Positions 3,679 to 52,584 of a stretch of DNA of 64,000 nt are shown in pieces (position 1 is the stretch's first letter; every line of letters starts with the position of its first letter). The stretch covers positions 3,782,001 to 3,846,000 of the forward strand of contig NZ_CP022412.2 in the NCBI RefSeq assembly GCF_002222615.2, given 5' to 3'. Below the pieces are notes generated by a model, which made no database searches, was not told where the DNA came from, and worked only from the letters and a program-made list of their open reading frames with translations. Origin of the DNA: Bacteroides caccae. Its GTDB lineage: Bacteria; Bacteroidota; Bacteroidia; Bacteroidales; Bacteroidaceae. The translations under genes and the position numbers were made by a program.

Positions 3679-4590
3679 TTAAAATTCAAAGAATTTTATC
3701 GCATCCAAATCACCTTTTAGTTTTTCATACTCTTCCGTTGAAAAAGCTTTTATCGGTAACCGGCAACTGCCGCAATCAAGACCTATAAGTTTCATGATAG
3801 CTTTACCACCACGTACGCCGCCACCATATTTAATAATCACTTCCACTGTACGTATCGATTTCATCTGCCAGGCACGTGCTGTTTCCACCTCATTTTTCTT
3901 CATTGATTCGAAAATGGCATGATAGACATTAGGGATATAATTATATGTACTTCCCACACCTGCCACTGCTCCCATAGATAAACCGGCAATCAGAATCTCG
4001 TCAAAGCCATGTAATACTTCAAACTTATGCTGCTCCAAACCGATACAAGCCCCCATCTCCATCAGGTTATTATGAGTAAACTTCGTTCCTACCAAATTTG
4101 GTATTTTCTTCTTGCCTTCTATCAAAAATTTATCTACCGGCAAGTTAACCCCTGTGATTGACGGCATATTATAATAATAGAAAGGCAACTCACTGGCGGC
4201 CCGGCAAATCGGTGCAAAAAAATCGACCAGTTCATCTACCGTTCCCGGCTTGAAAAAAGAAGGTGCTATTGAAGCGATAGCATCAGCTCCAGTTTGTGCC
4301 GCGTGGCTTGCCAGTTCCATTGCGTCTCGTTGACAGTTTGAACCGACATGTGCAATCACTTTAAAACGTTTAGCAGCAGAGGCTACCCATTTTTCAAGAA
4401 CCGCCTTACGCTCGTCAATAGTCAACGAAGAAAATTCACCAGTCGTACCACACACAAATACCCCTTTTACAGGAGTTGATGCTATCCAATCAGCATATTT
4501 ATCAATAACAGATAAATTCACGTCCCCATTTTCATCCATTGGGGTGAAGGTGGCCGCAACCATACCTTCCAGTCTTTCATAATTGTTCAT
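3679..4590 (-). CDS. nanA: N-acetylneuraminate lyase / DapA family aldolase
   Basis: Class I aldolase of the dihydrodipicolinate synthase family, predicted to split N-acetylneuraminate into N-acetylmannosamine and pyruvate in the cytoplasm. The 303 residues include the GTTGE motif of the family, YYYNMPSITG with the conserved Tyr, and VGTKFT with the Lys that forms the Schiff base. A longer frame runs upstream to 4743, but it would overlap the preceding gene by 127 bp and its extra residues match nothing in the family. The ATG at 4590 starts MNNYERLEGM and leaves a 26-bp gap. A DapA role is less likely because the gene sits between a NanM-like protein and a sialidase. Confidence 0.9.
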   Translation of the reverse strand: MNNYERLEGMVAATFTPMDENGDVNLSVIDKYADWIASTPVKGVFVCGTTGEFSSLTIDERKAVLEKWVASAAKRFKVIAHVGSNCQRDAMELASHAAQTGADAIASIAPSFFKPGTVDELVDFFAPICRAASELPFYYYNMPSITGVNLPVDKFLIEGKKKIPNLVGTKFTHNNLMEMGACIGLEQHKFEVLHGFDEILIAGLSMGAVAGVGSTYNYIPNVYHAIFESMKKNEVETARAWQMKSIRTVEVIIKYGGGVRGGKAIMKLIGLDCGSCRLPIKAFSTEEYEKLKGDLDAIKFFEF

Positions 4591-46973: not shown

Positions 46974-47813
46974 TCATTCTAATTTTTCAATTTCTTCGGT
47001 TGTAAGTCCGGTACATTCCGAAATTAGTTCGAGAGAAAGACCTTTGGATTTCATGATACGGGCTGTTACTTCCTTTTCTTTCTGCATCCCTTTCTGCATC
47101 CCCTTCTTTTCAGCAAAATCCAGCGTATTGAAATAGTCATTGTAGACTTTCCATTCTTCTTCGTACTGTGCTCTTTCTTCCTGGGTCATATTTGCTTTGG
47201 AAGCCAGCTTTTCCAGTCGTTCGAAGACGGCTTTTCGTGCCTTAAAAGGCATTCTGTCAAGTGTATCCATATGCTTTAATATATAAATCCAGCGTTCAAA
47301 ATCCGTATTGCATTCATCCTCTTCTTTATTAAAGTTTGGCAATTCGATAAAGATTTGCCGAAACTTGTCATTAAAGAGCTTTCCTGTAGCCCGGTCGGAT
47401 AAGACAACATCTGTCCTTATCGTTGCAGGCATGTCCTTGTCCATTACAAAGTTCATGAAGAACACTCCATATACAGCATCCAACCGGAAATTCCATTGTC
47501 CCCTTTTGGCTTGTTGCGTAATGGCCCTTGAGAGATAGAAAAGAGCACGGTCCTTAAAATAAGGTTGTTCCCGATTCTGCATTTCCACGATAATACGCTC
47601 ACCTGTATCGGTCATGCAGTAGATATCGTAGATGATCCCTCGTTCATTTTTTACTTCCGGCTGTTGTTCGTTGTTGAGGAACTGAATGTCGGTTATCACA
47701 TGCTCTCCTACGAGCAAATCATTTAAGAAGCTGATTAATAACTCCTTTTCTACCTCTCTGCCGAATAAAAACTTAAAGCCGTAATCGGTAAAGGGATTAA
47801 TAAATCTTCCCAT
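46974..47813 (-). CDS. Rpn / PD-(D/E)XK nuclease family protein
   Basis: 279 residues of the Rpn/PF12784 type, related to transposase-derived nucleases. The start MGRFINPFTDYGFKFLFG and IVEMQNREQPYFKDRALFYLSRAI are typical. The D-x(n)-E-x-Q motif (YDIYC..., IIVEMQ) fits the nuclease core. The C-terminal tail carries a short repeat, KGMQKGMQKEKE, and a helical end. In E. coli, Rpn proteins promote RecA-independent recombination; in Bacteroides there are many copies, of unknown role. Confidence 0.83.
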   Translation of the reverse strand: MGRFINPFTDYGFKFLFGREVEKELLISFLNDLLVGEHVITDIQFLNNEQQPEVKNERGIIYDIYCMTDTGERIIVEMQNREQPYFKDRALFYLSRAITQQAKRGQWNFRLDAVYGVFFMNFVMDKDMPATIRTDVVLSDRATGKLFNDKFRQIFIELPNFNKEEDECNTDFERWIYILKHMDTLDRMPFKARKAVFERLEKLASKANMTQEERAQYEEEWKVYNDYFNTLDFAEKKGMQKGMQKEKEVTARIMKSKGLSLELISECTGLTTEEIEKLE

Positions 47814-48297: not shown

Positions 48298-51264
48298 TTA
48301 CCATGCAGGAACTGTAACTGTTACAGTTTTAGCCTCCATAGCACCCCAAGGAGATTTAGGAGTAACTGTTACTTTTACTTCCATTGGTTTTGCACTTACA
48401 GACCAATCGGCTGCCGTTGTTGTTAATTTGAGCACGCCTTTAGCAATAGTAGGTTCAAAGAAGCCATTATTAGCACCTTCTTCCATTACATATTCTACAT
48501 CGAAACCATATATAGTCATAGGATCATTGCTGTCGTAAATATTCTCAGCAGCTTCCGGCCATATTTTGTTTTCAGCAGCAGTAGCATCTTTCCAAACAAG
48601 AGCAGTTTTCAAATCAAGACCTTCTTTTCTCTTTTCTATTGAAGTTACATCATAAGTAAGTTTACCTTGATCTTCCGGTTTTTCTGCGCTATATGCAAAT
48701 GTTCCGTTCAGTTTATCAGCAGGAATTGTCACTGCAATTTCTTTAGAGAATACTTCATGTTCACCGCACTTTCCTGTCAGTGTTACTTTAATAGGATCAC
48801 CTTCGTAAGAATTAGTTACAGTTACATCACCACTTTCAGTTACAGTGACACCTGTAATAGAAACTTCACCTTCAGCAAGAACAGGAGCAAACTTTAAAGT
48901 AGCACCGGAACCTAAGCCAGCAAAACTGCTCTCAACAGCTGCATAGTTAGAATAAAGCTCTTTCAGGTTTCTTGTTGCTGTTACAGCTGTATAATTACTT
49001 TCCTGAGTACCTGCACCTGTAAATGTACGACCCAGTACTGCTTTACTTCCGTCCCAAGTCTGAGCATTATCTATTAGTTTGAAAGCTGCATCATTTGCAT
49101 CAGGATAGCTTATCGTTACACCTTTCACTGTTACATCAATGCTCTTGTTGCCGTCTTGACTAGTAATTCTAGTAGTAATATCAGTAGCTTCGCATACTGT
49201 GCTTGCAGGAACTTTCAAGACAAGAGCACCGCTAGAACTGCCCAACTTAATTGTCTGAGTTACCGGAACTGCTGTAAATGTACAATTGTTGAAATTATCA
49301 ACGCCCAATGCTTCCTTTATCTTAGCTACGGCAGCTACGGTAGCACTTTCTGCAGTTACATCGAGTGTATATGATTTTTCTGCGCCATTCCACAGAAGAG
49401 GTAATTGCGCAGCAGCAAGTACAACTTCTTGTGCTTCACCTTCAGTGATCAATTTAACCTCTCCATAATCACCAGTATATTCTACTGTTTTTTCAGAAGA
49501 AGCACCCAGACCAGACACTGTTATTGTATACGATACTTTCGCCTTGTTACTTACTTCTGCTGCTTCTTTTGCAGACAACACGCCTGCTTCAGACAATTCA
49601 AAATTAGCGGCATTAGTACCTCCCAGAGTTAACTCCATAGGGAACTTATCTGCAGAAATTCCATATTGACTTAGCTTCGTTCTTGTGTCGGCTTCGCCTT
49701 CAACATCTCCATTATTATCTACTGATGAATAAACTGTCAAAGTATAGTCACCACCCGTTTTATAGTCGATAGTGTTTCCTTTAACTAATGTTGCCGGCTT
49801 TTCTTTCGGAGTCCACTCTACCTTGCTAATATACAGATTATTCTTCACAGCAACGAAATAGTTTGAAGAAATATCATTCAAAGTCTTCGCCTCACCTTCA
49901 ACTTTATCCGTCAGTGTCAAAGCGATTGCATAGCTAGCTGCTGCCTTACTAGCATCTAAAGTCACCTCAATCAGATTGGCTTCGTCTTCTACAGCTTCAA
50001 TCTTTGTAATATTGAACAATTCACCTGTAGCACGTGTTTTCACCGTCTGATAATCTACTGCAACATTATATTTAGCAGTTGCCTGTCCAAAATTATCAAT
50101 CAGTTCCTTCGCTGCACTACTCGGGGATACACGGAATCTCACTTTCACATCGCCACCGCTAATCATCGGTTCCCAATCGGCTGCATTACCGTTAGAACCA
50201 AACTTAGCATAGAACGTACTAAGCTGAACCAGTCCGTCTGCATATTCCGGTACGTATACGATACTTTGGATCATGCCTTTCAGTGCTGTAATTTCTGCTT
50301 CCAATTCTGCTTTCAACTTACCTAATGTAGACTCTACATTTGTCAATTCAGTGTCAATGATGCCTTGTACAGCCTCCCCAAAAGTCTTACCTTCAGGAAT
50401 TTGGAGTGCAGTCAAAGCATTTTTTGCAGCCACAATCTCATTGATAAGTGCTGCATAGTCTTTAGACTGACCTTCCTCAGTACCTACGTGTGCATTGATA
50501 GCTTTCAACAGTTCATCCAAACTGTCCAGTTGTTTTTTGATAACACCGTTTTCTTTAAAGATTTCATTGTAGATTTTATCTACAAATCCCGTCAAATCCT
50601 TTACACCGGTTATTCCGAGGCCTTCAATGTGCTCATTCAGTGCTTTAGCATTTGATGCAACACCGGCTTGTACAGCTTCGATTACATATTGGGCAATAGC
50701 TCCCTTGTTTTCACCTTTATCGTTCAGTGCATTTATAATGCTCTGATTGATGAATTTATCGAAGCTAGTGTTTTCGAAGCCGCTCAAATCCTCCGGATTA
50801 GCAATAAACTTATTTTCTGCATCAATCAAAGCCTGAAGAGTCGTCTTCATTCCCTTCAAAGCCTCAATATCTCTATTAATGGCATCAACTGTTGCCTGAC
50901 TGGCTTTACCATTTATTAATTCAGTAAGTTCAGTCTTAGCTGCTGCCAAGGCATCAGCTACGGTTTTATCACCAGCTGCCAGCTTACCTTCCAATTCTTT
51001 AATTTTGGCTTCCAAATCAGTGGCAGTAACTTTGCCGTCAACCAGATCCTGCAAGTCTTTAACCTTCTTTTCCAAAGCTTTCGTTGCCGCATCAACAGCA
51101 GCTTTCATGTCTTCCGTGCTCACAGGATTAGTCGATTTAATATTATCGACCTGTTCCTGCAAGCCTTTAATGTCGTCATCATAATCCTTACAACTTGTGA
51201 CTGTTGTAGTGACTGCAAGCGTCAATGCCCCGAAAAGCATTACCCTAACAAAATTTTTCTTCAT
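48298..51264 (-). CDS. Phase-variable surface lipoprotein, S-layer-type (BT1927-like)
   Basis: 988 residues. A lipoprotein signal (lipobox VTSC, Cys 25) is followed by KDYDDD, which suits surface export. Residues about 30-340 are heptad-rich, low-complexity helices (KALEKKVKDLQDLVDG), likely coiled coil. The rest is beta-rich with many Val, Thr and Ala residues and no catalytic motif. Layout and start resemble the S-layer-type lipoproteins of B. thetaiotaomicron (BT1927 family), whose promoters invert. An invertible segment lies 61 bp upstream, with its own recombinase. As sequenced the promoter faces away, so the gene should be off. The family call is from memory; the lipoprotein nature is seen. 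Confidence 0.75.
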   Translation of the reverse strand: MKKNFVRVMLFGALTLAVTTTVTSCKDYDDDIKGLQEQVDNIKSTNPVSTEDMKAAVDAATKALEKKVKDLQDLVDGKVTATDLEAKIKELEGKLAAGDKTVADALAAAKTELTELINGKASQATVDAINRDIEALKGMKTTLQALIDAENKFIANPEDLSGFENTSFDKFINQSIINALNDKGENKGAIAQYVIEAVQAGVASNAKALNEHIEGLGITGVKDLTGFVDKIYNEIFKENGVIKKQLDSLDELLKAINAHVGTEEGQSKDYAALINEIVAAKNALTALQIPEGKTFGEAVQGIIDTELTNVESTLGKLKAELEAEITALKGMIQSIVYVPEYADGLVQLSTFYAKFGSNGNAADWEPMISGGDVKVRFRVSPSSAAKELIDNFGQATAKYNVAVDYQTVKTRATGELFNITKIEAVEDEANLIEVTLDASKAAASYAIALTLTDKVEGEAKTLNDISSNYFVAVKNNLYISKVEWTPKEKPATLVKGNTIDYKTGGDYTLTVYSSVDNNGDVEGEADTRTKLSQYGISADKFPMELTLGGTNAANFELSEAGVLSAKEAAEVSNKAKVSYTITVSGLGASSEKTVEYTGDYGEVKLITEGEAQEVVLAAAQLPLLWNGAEKSYTLDVTAESATVAAVAKIKEALGVDNFNNCTFTAVPVTQTIKLGSSSGALVLKVPASTVCEATDITTRITSQDGNKSIDVTVKGVTISYPDANDAAFKLIDNAQTWDGSKAVLGRTFTGAGTQESNYTAVTATRNLKELYSNYAAVESSFAGLGSGATLKFAPVLAEGEVSITGVTVTESGDVTVTNSYEGDPIKVTLTGKCGEHEVFSKEIAVTIPADKLNGTFAYSAEKPEDQGKLTYDVTSIEKRKEGLDLKTALVWKDATAAENKIWPEAAENIYDSNDPMTIYGFDVEYVMEEGANNGFFEPTIAKGVLKLTTTAADWSVSAKPMEVKVTVTPKSPWGAMEAKTVTVTVPAW

Positions 51265-51327
51265 AACTACTTAAAAATTACATTAATAATATATTATTAA
51301 ACACTAAGTTTCAATAATAGACGGCCC

Positions 51328-51346
51328 GTTACTTCGTAGGTAACGG
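51328..51346. repeat. Left inverted repeat of invertible promoter
   Basis: GTTACTTCGTAGGTAACGG is the exact reverse complement of 51611-51629. It contains GTTAC-N7-GTAAC, two arms with a 7-bp spacer, as expected of a tyrosine recombinase crossover site. Confidence 0.88.
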
Positions 51347-51610
51347 AGAAACCTTTGTTCCTGCTCTCTGAGAGTAGTCGATACTGAAAAATGATACGAT
51401 AAGTGATGAAAGTTCTTTACCCCTGCTTCTGACGAGCGGCAGAGGGGAGGGAAACCTTTTGCAATATTTAGAAGTTAACAAAGCCCTAATACAAAGAATC
51501 CACGTGTTTTATCTGTCCTAGTTCCGCTTTTGAGTAGTTTATTGGAAAAAATGTTTGATTTCGTTTGGTTGTTTTAAGAAATATGCTCATATTTGCACCG
51601 ATATTCAAAC
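51347..51610. mobile_element. Invertible promoter segment, 264 bp
   Basis: DNA between two 19-bp inverted repeats. It carries one good promoter (51564-51595), reading right in this orientation, and a hairpin (CCCCTGC...GCAGAGGGG, about 51420-51447). Inverted, the promoter would face the lipoprotein gene and give a leader of about 90 nt. No promoter of comparable quality points left as sequenced. Confidence 0.85.
51564..51595 (+). promoter_or_regulatory. Promoter inside the invertible segment
   Basis: TTTG (51564-51567), 20-nt spacer, CATATTTG (51588-51595). It reads toward, and antisense to, the recombinase gene. Confidence 0.65.
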
Positions 51611-51629
51611 CCGTTACCTACGAAGTAAC
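51611..51629. repeat. Right inverted repeat of invertible promoter
   Basis: CCGTTACCTACGAAGTAAC, the exact reverse complement of 51328-51346, 11 bp from the recombinase stop. Confidence 0.88.
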
Positions 51630-51639
51630 AGACTTACAA

Positions 51640-52584
51640 TCAAGCGCTTACACCTATCACAGAGCGTTTTACAAAATCGAGAACCTGTTTATTTGCTTCA
51701 TCAATTTTCTTACTCCGGAAAGGTTTGAGATACGTCTCGGTCACTGTAATGGACGAATGTCCCATAGCTTCGGAGATAATGCCCGGGTGAATTTCGCAAT
51801 AATAAGCCGTTGTAGCCCAGGTATGGCGCGCGGTATAGGAGCTCAATCTATCCTTCAATCCCAAAAACCTTCCCAATAGTTCCAACTGATAATTGAAATG
51901 GCGCAATGCCAACTGATATTCCCGATAAGCTTCCGGCGAACCTTCGGCGCTGCGGAGAATAGGGAACAAATAAGGCGAACGCTTATCACGGTTCATATAC
52001 TTCTGCAAGAGGAACATGGCTTCCGGTGTCAACGTCACCGACAACGGACGACCCGTTTTGCGGCGACGGTAAGTAATGACATCCCCCCGAAGATCGCTCT
52101 TACGCAGGTAAGCCAGATCGACAAAAGGCAATCCCCGAAGCAGGAACATGAGAATAAACAATTCCTGCGCACCCCTCATGCCGGGAGGTATGGCGGCCGA
52201 CTGCAACAGGCGGGCAAACACCTTCTTCATGTCTTCCATATCCAACGCCCGCCGGCGGTCCGCCCGCGTACCTGTATATACGGAACGGAACAGATGCGGC
52301 ACGTACGGCGCACGATGAAGATCGACGGCCCGATTGTAAACGGCACGCATCGTGCGAAGGTACGTAGACACCGTGTTCCAACTACACCCGCGGGCACGAA
52401 GGCTACCCTCAAAATGTTTCAGCCACTCCGGAGTTATTTCCCGAAACTCCACGCTTTCCGATTCCTGAAAAACAAGAATCGCATTCAAACTACTTCTATA
52501 CACATGAGCAGTCCCTAAATTTCCACTCTGCTGCAAATCGGCAGCCACTTGTTTCATAAACGAAGTAAAACTTTCCTTCTTCAT
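51640..52584 (-). CDS. Tyrosine recombinase (promoter invertase)
   Basis: 314 residues. The N-terminal SAM-like DNA-binding domain (about 5-105) leads to the catalytic domain. Catalytic residues seen: Arg in RGLPFVDLAYL, Lys in YRRRKTGRPL, His-x-x-Arg as TARHTWATT (R and H), His in MGHSSITVTE and the nucleophile Tyr in TETYLKPF. Its stop lies 11 bp from one inverted repeat, so it probably inverts the adjacent promoter segment. A TTG start 6 bp upstream is possible; the ATG at 52584 is preferred. It belongs to the chromosomal tsr-type recombinases of Bacteroides. Confidence 0.9.
   Translation of the reverse strand: MKKESFTSFMKQVAADLQQSGNLGTAHVYRSSLNAILVFQESESVEFREITPEWLKHFEGSLRARGCSWNTVSTYLRTMRAVYNRAVDLHRAPYVPHLFRSVYTGTRADRRRALDMEDMKKVFARLLQSAAIPPGMRGAQELFILMFLLRGLPFVDLAYLRKSDLRGDVITYRRRKTGRPLSVTLTPEAMFLLQKYMNRDKRSPYLFPILRSAEGSPEAYREYQLALRHFNYQLELLGRFLGLKDRLSSYTARHTWATTAYYCEIHPGIISEAMGHSSITVTETYLKPFRSKKIDEANKQVLDFVKRSVIGVSA

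Follow-up and report, generated by a model that had tools for sequence, protein, structure and literature searches.

The window, i.e. the whole 64,000-nucleotide stretch of Bacteroides caccae DNA analyzed here, carries a short segment bounded by inverted repeats and placed between the gene for a 988-aa S-layer-like surface lipoprotein and that for a tyrosine recombinase (Table 1). A sequence-only reading of this DNA had described two exact 19-bp inverted repeats with GTTAC-N7-GTAAC cores and 264 bp between them, and this was borne out by a repeat search and a pattern search, the arms being exact reverse complements. The same reading placed the recombinase gene 11 bp from one repeat; the adjacency holds, the true gap between stop codon and arm being 10 bases (51630-51639) and 11 being the coordinate difference. 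Within the segment, a conserved stretch may form a hairpin, for which covariation is weak in the alignment of 38 of the 51 available segment sequences, segments containing N being left out (7 pairs, 2 with a double change, covariation term 0). This hairpin was ruled out as a canonical terminator because no T-run follows it, and the predicted folding of the 5' leader of the ON transcript was no better than that of shuffled sequences (z -0.86). One further exact inverted repeat was found in the whole window (at least 16 nt, arm starts 100-1000 bp apart), at 57121-57141/57380-57400. Its 21-nt arms, with 238 nt between them, enclose a second 21-nt inverted repeat (95%) and lie just 3' of a gene of the met-zincin family encoding 845 aa, with no recombinase ORF immediately adjoining; they resemble a palindromic repeat element.

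Table 1. Features of the promoter switch and its flanking genes in the window
Feature	Position	Strand	Basis or remark
Lipoprotein gene, 988 aa, S-layer-like surface protein, presumed switch target	48298..51264	-	sequence
A+T-rich leader between switch and lipoprotein gene	51265..51327	-	near-identical across the five S-type units of the genome
Left inverted repeat arm, GTTAC-N7-GTAAC core	51328..51346	+	repeat and pattern search
Invertible segment, OFF orientation as assembled	51347..51610	.	264 nt between arms
Conserved stretch CCCC...GGGG that may form a hairpin, within segment	51420..51447	.	segment alignment
Predicted Bacteroides-type promoter, TTTG-N20-CATATTTG	51564..51595	+	aimed at recombinase 3' end; by consensus only
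Right inverted repeat arm	51611..51629	-	plus strand reads CCGTTACCTACGAAGTAAC
Tyrosine recombinase gene, 314 aa from ATG, likely invertase	51640..52584	-	ORF, PF13102 and PF00589

Bacteroides promoters carry a -33 element, TTTG. For the -7 element, the consensus TAnnTTTG is given in an excerpt of PMC4747536. Scanning for this type of promoter gave a match to nine of ten consensus positions that is the only one that good in the segment, the best scores elsewhere being 8 on the segment's other strand and 7 on the gene's strand of the leader; as the sequence-only reading had held, this promoter faces away from the 988-aa gene and toward the recombinase gene. A separate strong promoter for the 988-aa gene in the leader, named in that reading as evidence against an invertible promoter, was not found by the consensus scans: the Bacteroides-type scan gave no good match there on the gene's strand, and the E. 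coli-type scan returned no promoter within the segment and one match in the leader; the region holding it had 6 matches versus 6.0 expected. Taken singly the Bacteroides-type match is weak and falls short of significance: on the promoter strand, a score of 9 is reached by 15% of 1000 dinucleotide shuffles. The call gains weight from the fixed place of the putative promoter in most of the other units of the same type. The combination of promoter and repeats is beyond chance because the design recurs, with ten units in this genome, 120 in the genus, and none for a reversed-pattern control.

Units of the same design in the genome and the genus

A pattern search of the 4.57-Mb genome gave 26 exact GTTAC-N7-GTAAC sites, versus 9 for the reversed control, and 19 of these, together with one single-mismatch site, form ten repeat pairs. 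All ten units are OFF, and in each a tyrosine recombinase gene is directed at the pair, with no more than about 50 bp between its end and the pair, and a gene of the same orientation lies on the far side. Five units, including that of the window (the others being L032, L035, and two in L036), are of the S-layer type (S-type) and precede lipoprotein genes sharing the leader M-K-R/K-...CKDYDDD. The four other S-type recombinases are 77-79% identical to that of the window, and paralogous recombinases, these four among them, could act in trans on its switch. Positions R150, K176, R253, H276, and Y285, which we take to be the catalytic R-K-R-H-Y of a tyrosine invertase, are invariant in all five. 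The remaining five units carry a second type of recombinase. Beyond the switch lie UpxY-like genes in three of them, with a match to the UpxY antiterminator model for the single one tested, and genes of DUF3575 and DUF3868 in a fourth; the fifth is L239. The recombinases of the UpxY units are 38-41% identical to that of the window. Four second-type enzymes (L031, L033, L034, and L037) read FCGM or FGGM where those of S-type have LRGM/L/I, and they seem to be without the first catalytic arginine.

To extend this beyond one genome, we searched 158 Bacteroides genomes for exact occurrences of arm-N(245-272)-arm, and one script scored all units, leaving out 21 loci (L038-L058) taken as copies of genomes in the set. 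This census gave 120 distinct units in 29 of the 158 genomes, with up to eleven units in one genome. A family recombinase lies in tandem with the switch, its 3' end at most 350 bp from one arm, in 119 units, the exception lying near the end of a short contig. Of these 119, 111 have an open frame of 270 codons or more that ends beside the switch, and in eight S-type units the frame is shorter, being broken, contig-cut, or masked. The promoter points toward the recombinase (OFF) in 110 units and away from it (ON) in 8, spread over seven genomes; two units are without an orientation call, namely L308, OFF-like by eye, and one without a recombinase on its short contig. By type, there were 66 OFF, 3 ON, and 1 without a call for S-type units, and 44 OFF and 5 ON for the second type. 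Two of the ON S-type units, L317 and L319, retain a recombinase ORF of full length that encodes both Pfam domains, each with a lipoprotein whose leader is similar; in the third, L117, an inserted element splits the recombinase. Both orientations are thus found in nature, as a difference between individual genomes from separate species. An earlier, looser count seeded on recombinases, from which units with identical segments were removed, gave OFF:ON ratios of 56:1 for S-type and 58:6 for the second type (ON in 1/57 versus 6/64, Fisher p 0.12). This count also listed 11 recombinase matches that had no repeat pair (7 and 4) and a single unit lacking an orientation call. For a control repeat, GTTCGTTTAA, there were 16 units in 10 of the 158 genomes; among 15 loci read by eye, 7 were assignable, 2 ON and 5 OFF, a small set, the remaining loci lying between divergent genes or having no clear target gene.

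Strand exchange by tyrosine recombinases takes place inside the spacer and needs matching sequence. The search pattern did not demand agreement between the 7-nt spacers of a unit, yet these are identical between the two arms in 118 of the 120 units, as would be expected from strand exchange pairing the arms; the exceptions are L117 and L104, the latter with a recombinase of long open frame. Between arms of different units, spacers agree in 21.6% of S-type comparisons versus 84.3% for the second type, in which one spacer predominates. S-type spacers that match within a unit and often differ between units may be one way for switches of the same genome to avoid cross-recombination. Some genomes repeat spacers, and the rule that every switch in a genome has its own spacer was dropped because of them.

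The sequence-only reading's central proposal, an invertible promoter that is OFF as sequenced and has its own recombinase, is thus supported by the ten units of the same design, the 8 ON among 118 oriented units elsewhere, and the matching arm spacers. The uniform OFF orientation of the ten units would also suit a dead or static relic that no longer inverts; this reading is highly improbable given the perfect arms, a recombinase ORF with the expected catalytic residues, relatives in the ON state, and the matching spacers.

Relation to known switches

Switches of this kind are known in Bacteroides, and the locus is a further example. In an excerpt of PMC12118408, BT1927 and seven further B. thetaiotaomicron loci near site-specific integrases share the repeat consensus CCGTTACCTABVRAGTAAC, and GTTAC palindromes are placed next to invertase genes at capsule loci. 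The right arm of the window switch fits this consensus exactly, which supports the link to S-layer phase variation drawn in the sequence-only reading. For BT1927, an excerpt of PMC12548429 describes a promoter that inverts and is locked when one repeat is mutated, an ON state in about 1 in 1,000 cells in rich medium, and protection against phages and complement upon BT1927 expression. According to part of the text of PMC11892184, invertase genes beside such invertons are generally oriented so that the promoter cannot drive them, and the arrangement of recombinase and inverton is therefore already in print. Invertons and transcription starts have been mapped in B. thetaiotaomicron (PMC10994844), the excerpted text of which holds nothing on these recombinases.

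We are confident that the locus is a phase-variation switch for one of the genome's five S-layer-like surface lipoproteins, probably flipped by the adjacent recombinase. The tyrosine recombinase encoded next to the segment would bind both palindromic arms and swap strands inside their identical 7-nt spacers, so that the 264-bp segment inverts. In the OFF state, as assembled, the predicted promoter would drive transcription back into the recombinase gene at its 3' end, and in the ON state it would read through one arm and the conserved leader into the lipoprotein gene. By analogy with published data on BT1927, the OFF state is expected in most cells. That the window recombinase moves the window segment and that the predicted promoter is active are both inferred, the latter from consensus and conserved position.

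The window locus shares with S-layer loci of the BT1927 type the 19-bp palindromic repeat, the invertible promoter, the adjoining integrase, the large surface lipoprotein, and the presence of several paralogues per genome, whereas the window copy is without an adjoining OmpA-type partner gene; the likeness is one of locus design. In addition, both orientations are seen here across species only (3 ON among 69 oriented S-type units, one of them with a split recombinase). The gene next downstream of the 988-aa gene (46974-47813) belongs to the PDDEXK_2 transposase family and occupies the position that the barrel partner takes at the BT1927 locus; that partner is a putative one in the excerpt of PMC12578637 on the Bt1926-27 S-layer locus. 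In print, an OmpA partner is described for BT1927 and the other loci of its type are said to lie close to genes for surface proteins and OmpA-family proteins. One L036 paralogue is accompanied by an OmpA gene; we treat such a partner as common in BT1927-type loci and not strictly defining.

The 988-aa protein itself has a lipoprotein-like leader ending SCKDYDDD, which recurs in many lipoproteins of the S-type loci fetched. Within the genome, the five S-type lipoproteins have near-identical leaders and diverge beyond them, the others being 18-30% identical to that of the window. The protein matched no Pfam or NCBIfam model above the cut-off; among three related switch-controlled lipoproteins scanned, DUF4988 was above the cut-off in L317 and L096 and below it in L117. 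A PDB sequence search gave no meaningful match and no solved relative. The 988-aa protein could be a phase-variable surface lipoprotein outside the S-layer, e.g. an adhesin, and the missing family match and OmpA-type partner would agree with this, as would the mean pLDDT of 39 of a structure prediction made from four sequences. We give this reading a limited chance, because leader and switch are shared with S-layer-type loci and the similarity to other switch-controlled lipoproteins runs over the whole length (46% identity to L092:4522-7539; against several others, 26-34% along extended stretches). Its S-layer function rests on the kinship of the locus, from which we infer that the product probably forms an S-layer.

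Two other groups of switches bear comparison. In excerpts of the B. fragilis work, the Tsr19 (BF2766) system likewise has a recombinase with an inverted promoter, IVp-I, immediately downstream, mostly OFF and of the TAnnTTTG type, but it controls extracellular polysaccharide genes and its enzyme also moves a distant site, whereas in the units counted here a recombinase adjoins each switch. The UpxY capsule invertons of B. thetaiotaomicron and B. xylanisolvens share the GTTAC/GTAAC palindrome and the adjoining invertase gene, and three such units occur in this genome; on the other hand, they control capsule operons, and their recombinases here are only distantly similar to that of the window.

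Predominance of the OFF orientation

Published work ties switches of this type to the resistance of gut Bacteroides to phages and complement. The genus census, with 119 of 120 units in tandem and 110 OFF to 8 ON, brings into focus what makes these switches default to OFF and whether cis silencing of the recombinase occurs. One answer, a form of the feedback tentatively proposed in the sequence-only reading, is a latch, in which the antisense transcript of the OFF promoter across the recombinase 3' end would lower recombinase levels, and the ON state would free the recombinase and let the segment flip back. The tandem geometry and the OFF excess both suit such a latch, as do excerpted results on B. 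fragilis (PMC4747536), where wild-type cells had the promoter immediately downstream of BF2766/Tsr19 mostly OFF, with no such orientation difference at a distant promoter that this enzyme also moves, and the OFF deviation vanished with a plasmid-borne enzyme. The distant promoter was, however, ON in all 96 deletion mutants and so is not plainly unbiased (PMC4747536, same excerpt). The suggestion made by the authors of that work is that recombinase expression is suppressed or that some other regulatory mechanism acts; the antisense latch in cis is a reading of our analysis and not theirs. Among the matches listed in a literature search, no title or abstract opening describes antisense control of such an invertase.

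A transcript-level constraint on the recombinase 3' end might leave a trace in synonymous codon conservation, which was scored for recombinases of suitable length beside a repeat pair. In the second type (55 recombinases, mean 0.478), the 3' end is more conserved than nearly all windows of codons, at 0.508 for the last 60 codons (0.8% of windows as high), 0.539 for the last 40 (4%), and 0.611 for the last 20 (1.7%), in agreement with a latch. On the other hand, the excess is slight in the S-type, to which the window belongs (40 recombinases, mean 0.484), with 0.527 for the last 60 codons (4.3%), 0.525 for the last 40 (11.7%), and 0.53 for the last 20 (19.7%), and the first 20 codons are equally conserved in both types (0.63 for S-type and 0.62 for the second type). 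The control repeat type is also mostly OFF in its small set, which might speak against the latch as well. We hold the latch to be rather unlikely.

Selection against costly surface proteins, of which few would be expressed at once, or sampling explains the OFF excess as well and needs no feedback. Such an explanation, to which we give an even chance, fits the number of units that a single genome may carry and the scarcity of ON units, the lean of the other repeat type toward OFF, and the small ON fraction of BT1927 in vitro in the excerpt of PMC12548429. By itself, selection or sampling leaves unexplained the loss of the OFF excess with a plasmid-borne recombinase in B. fragilis (excerpt of PMC4747536). 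The broader proposition that recombinase-adjacent Bacteroides invertible promoters are self-latching, the OFF state silencing its own recombinase by antisense and making OFF the default throughout the genus, is one we consider unlikely; if it were true, a genome like this one would carry about ten independent OFF-latched surface switches.

A mobile element in recombinase genes

Some recombinase genes are interrupted by a mobile element with two tandem tyrosine integrases (L117:1179-3639, L106, L232, and L250-L260). A literature search on the element gave nothing among the matches listed. A search with the end sequence of the element found 11 copies in 8 of the 158 genomes, and in 10 of the 11 an R-H-T-[WF] catalytic box follows the element end in frame and reads as part of a tyrosine recombinase gene. 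As read from these junctions, the insertion site of the element lies in the codons for the catalytic box of tyrosine recombinases, switch recombinases included. Four copies adjoin GTTAC-type switches (L253, L256, L257, and L258), and a fifth, L250, is S-type-like by eye. Four switches have a recombinase split by the element, three of them OFF and one ON; the latter is the L117 switch (4135-4436, the same place as L258), the arms of which differ by one mismatch in the spacer.
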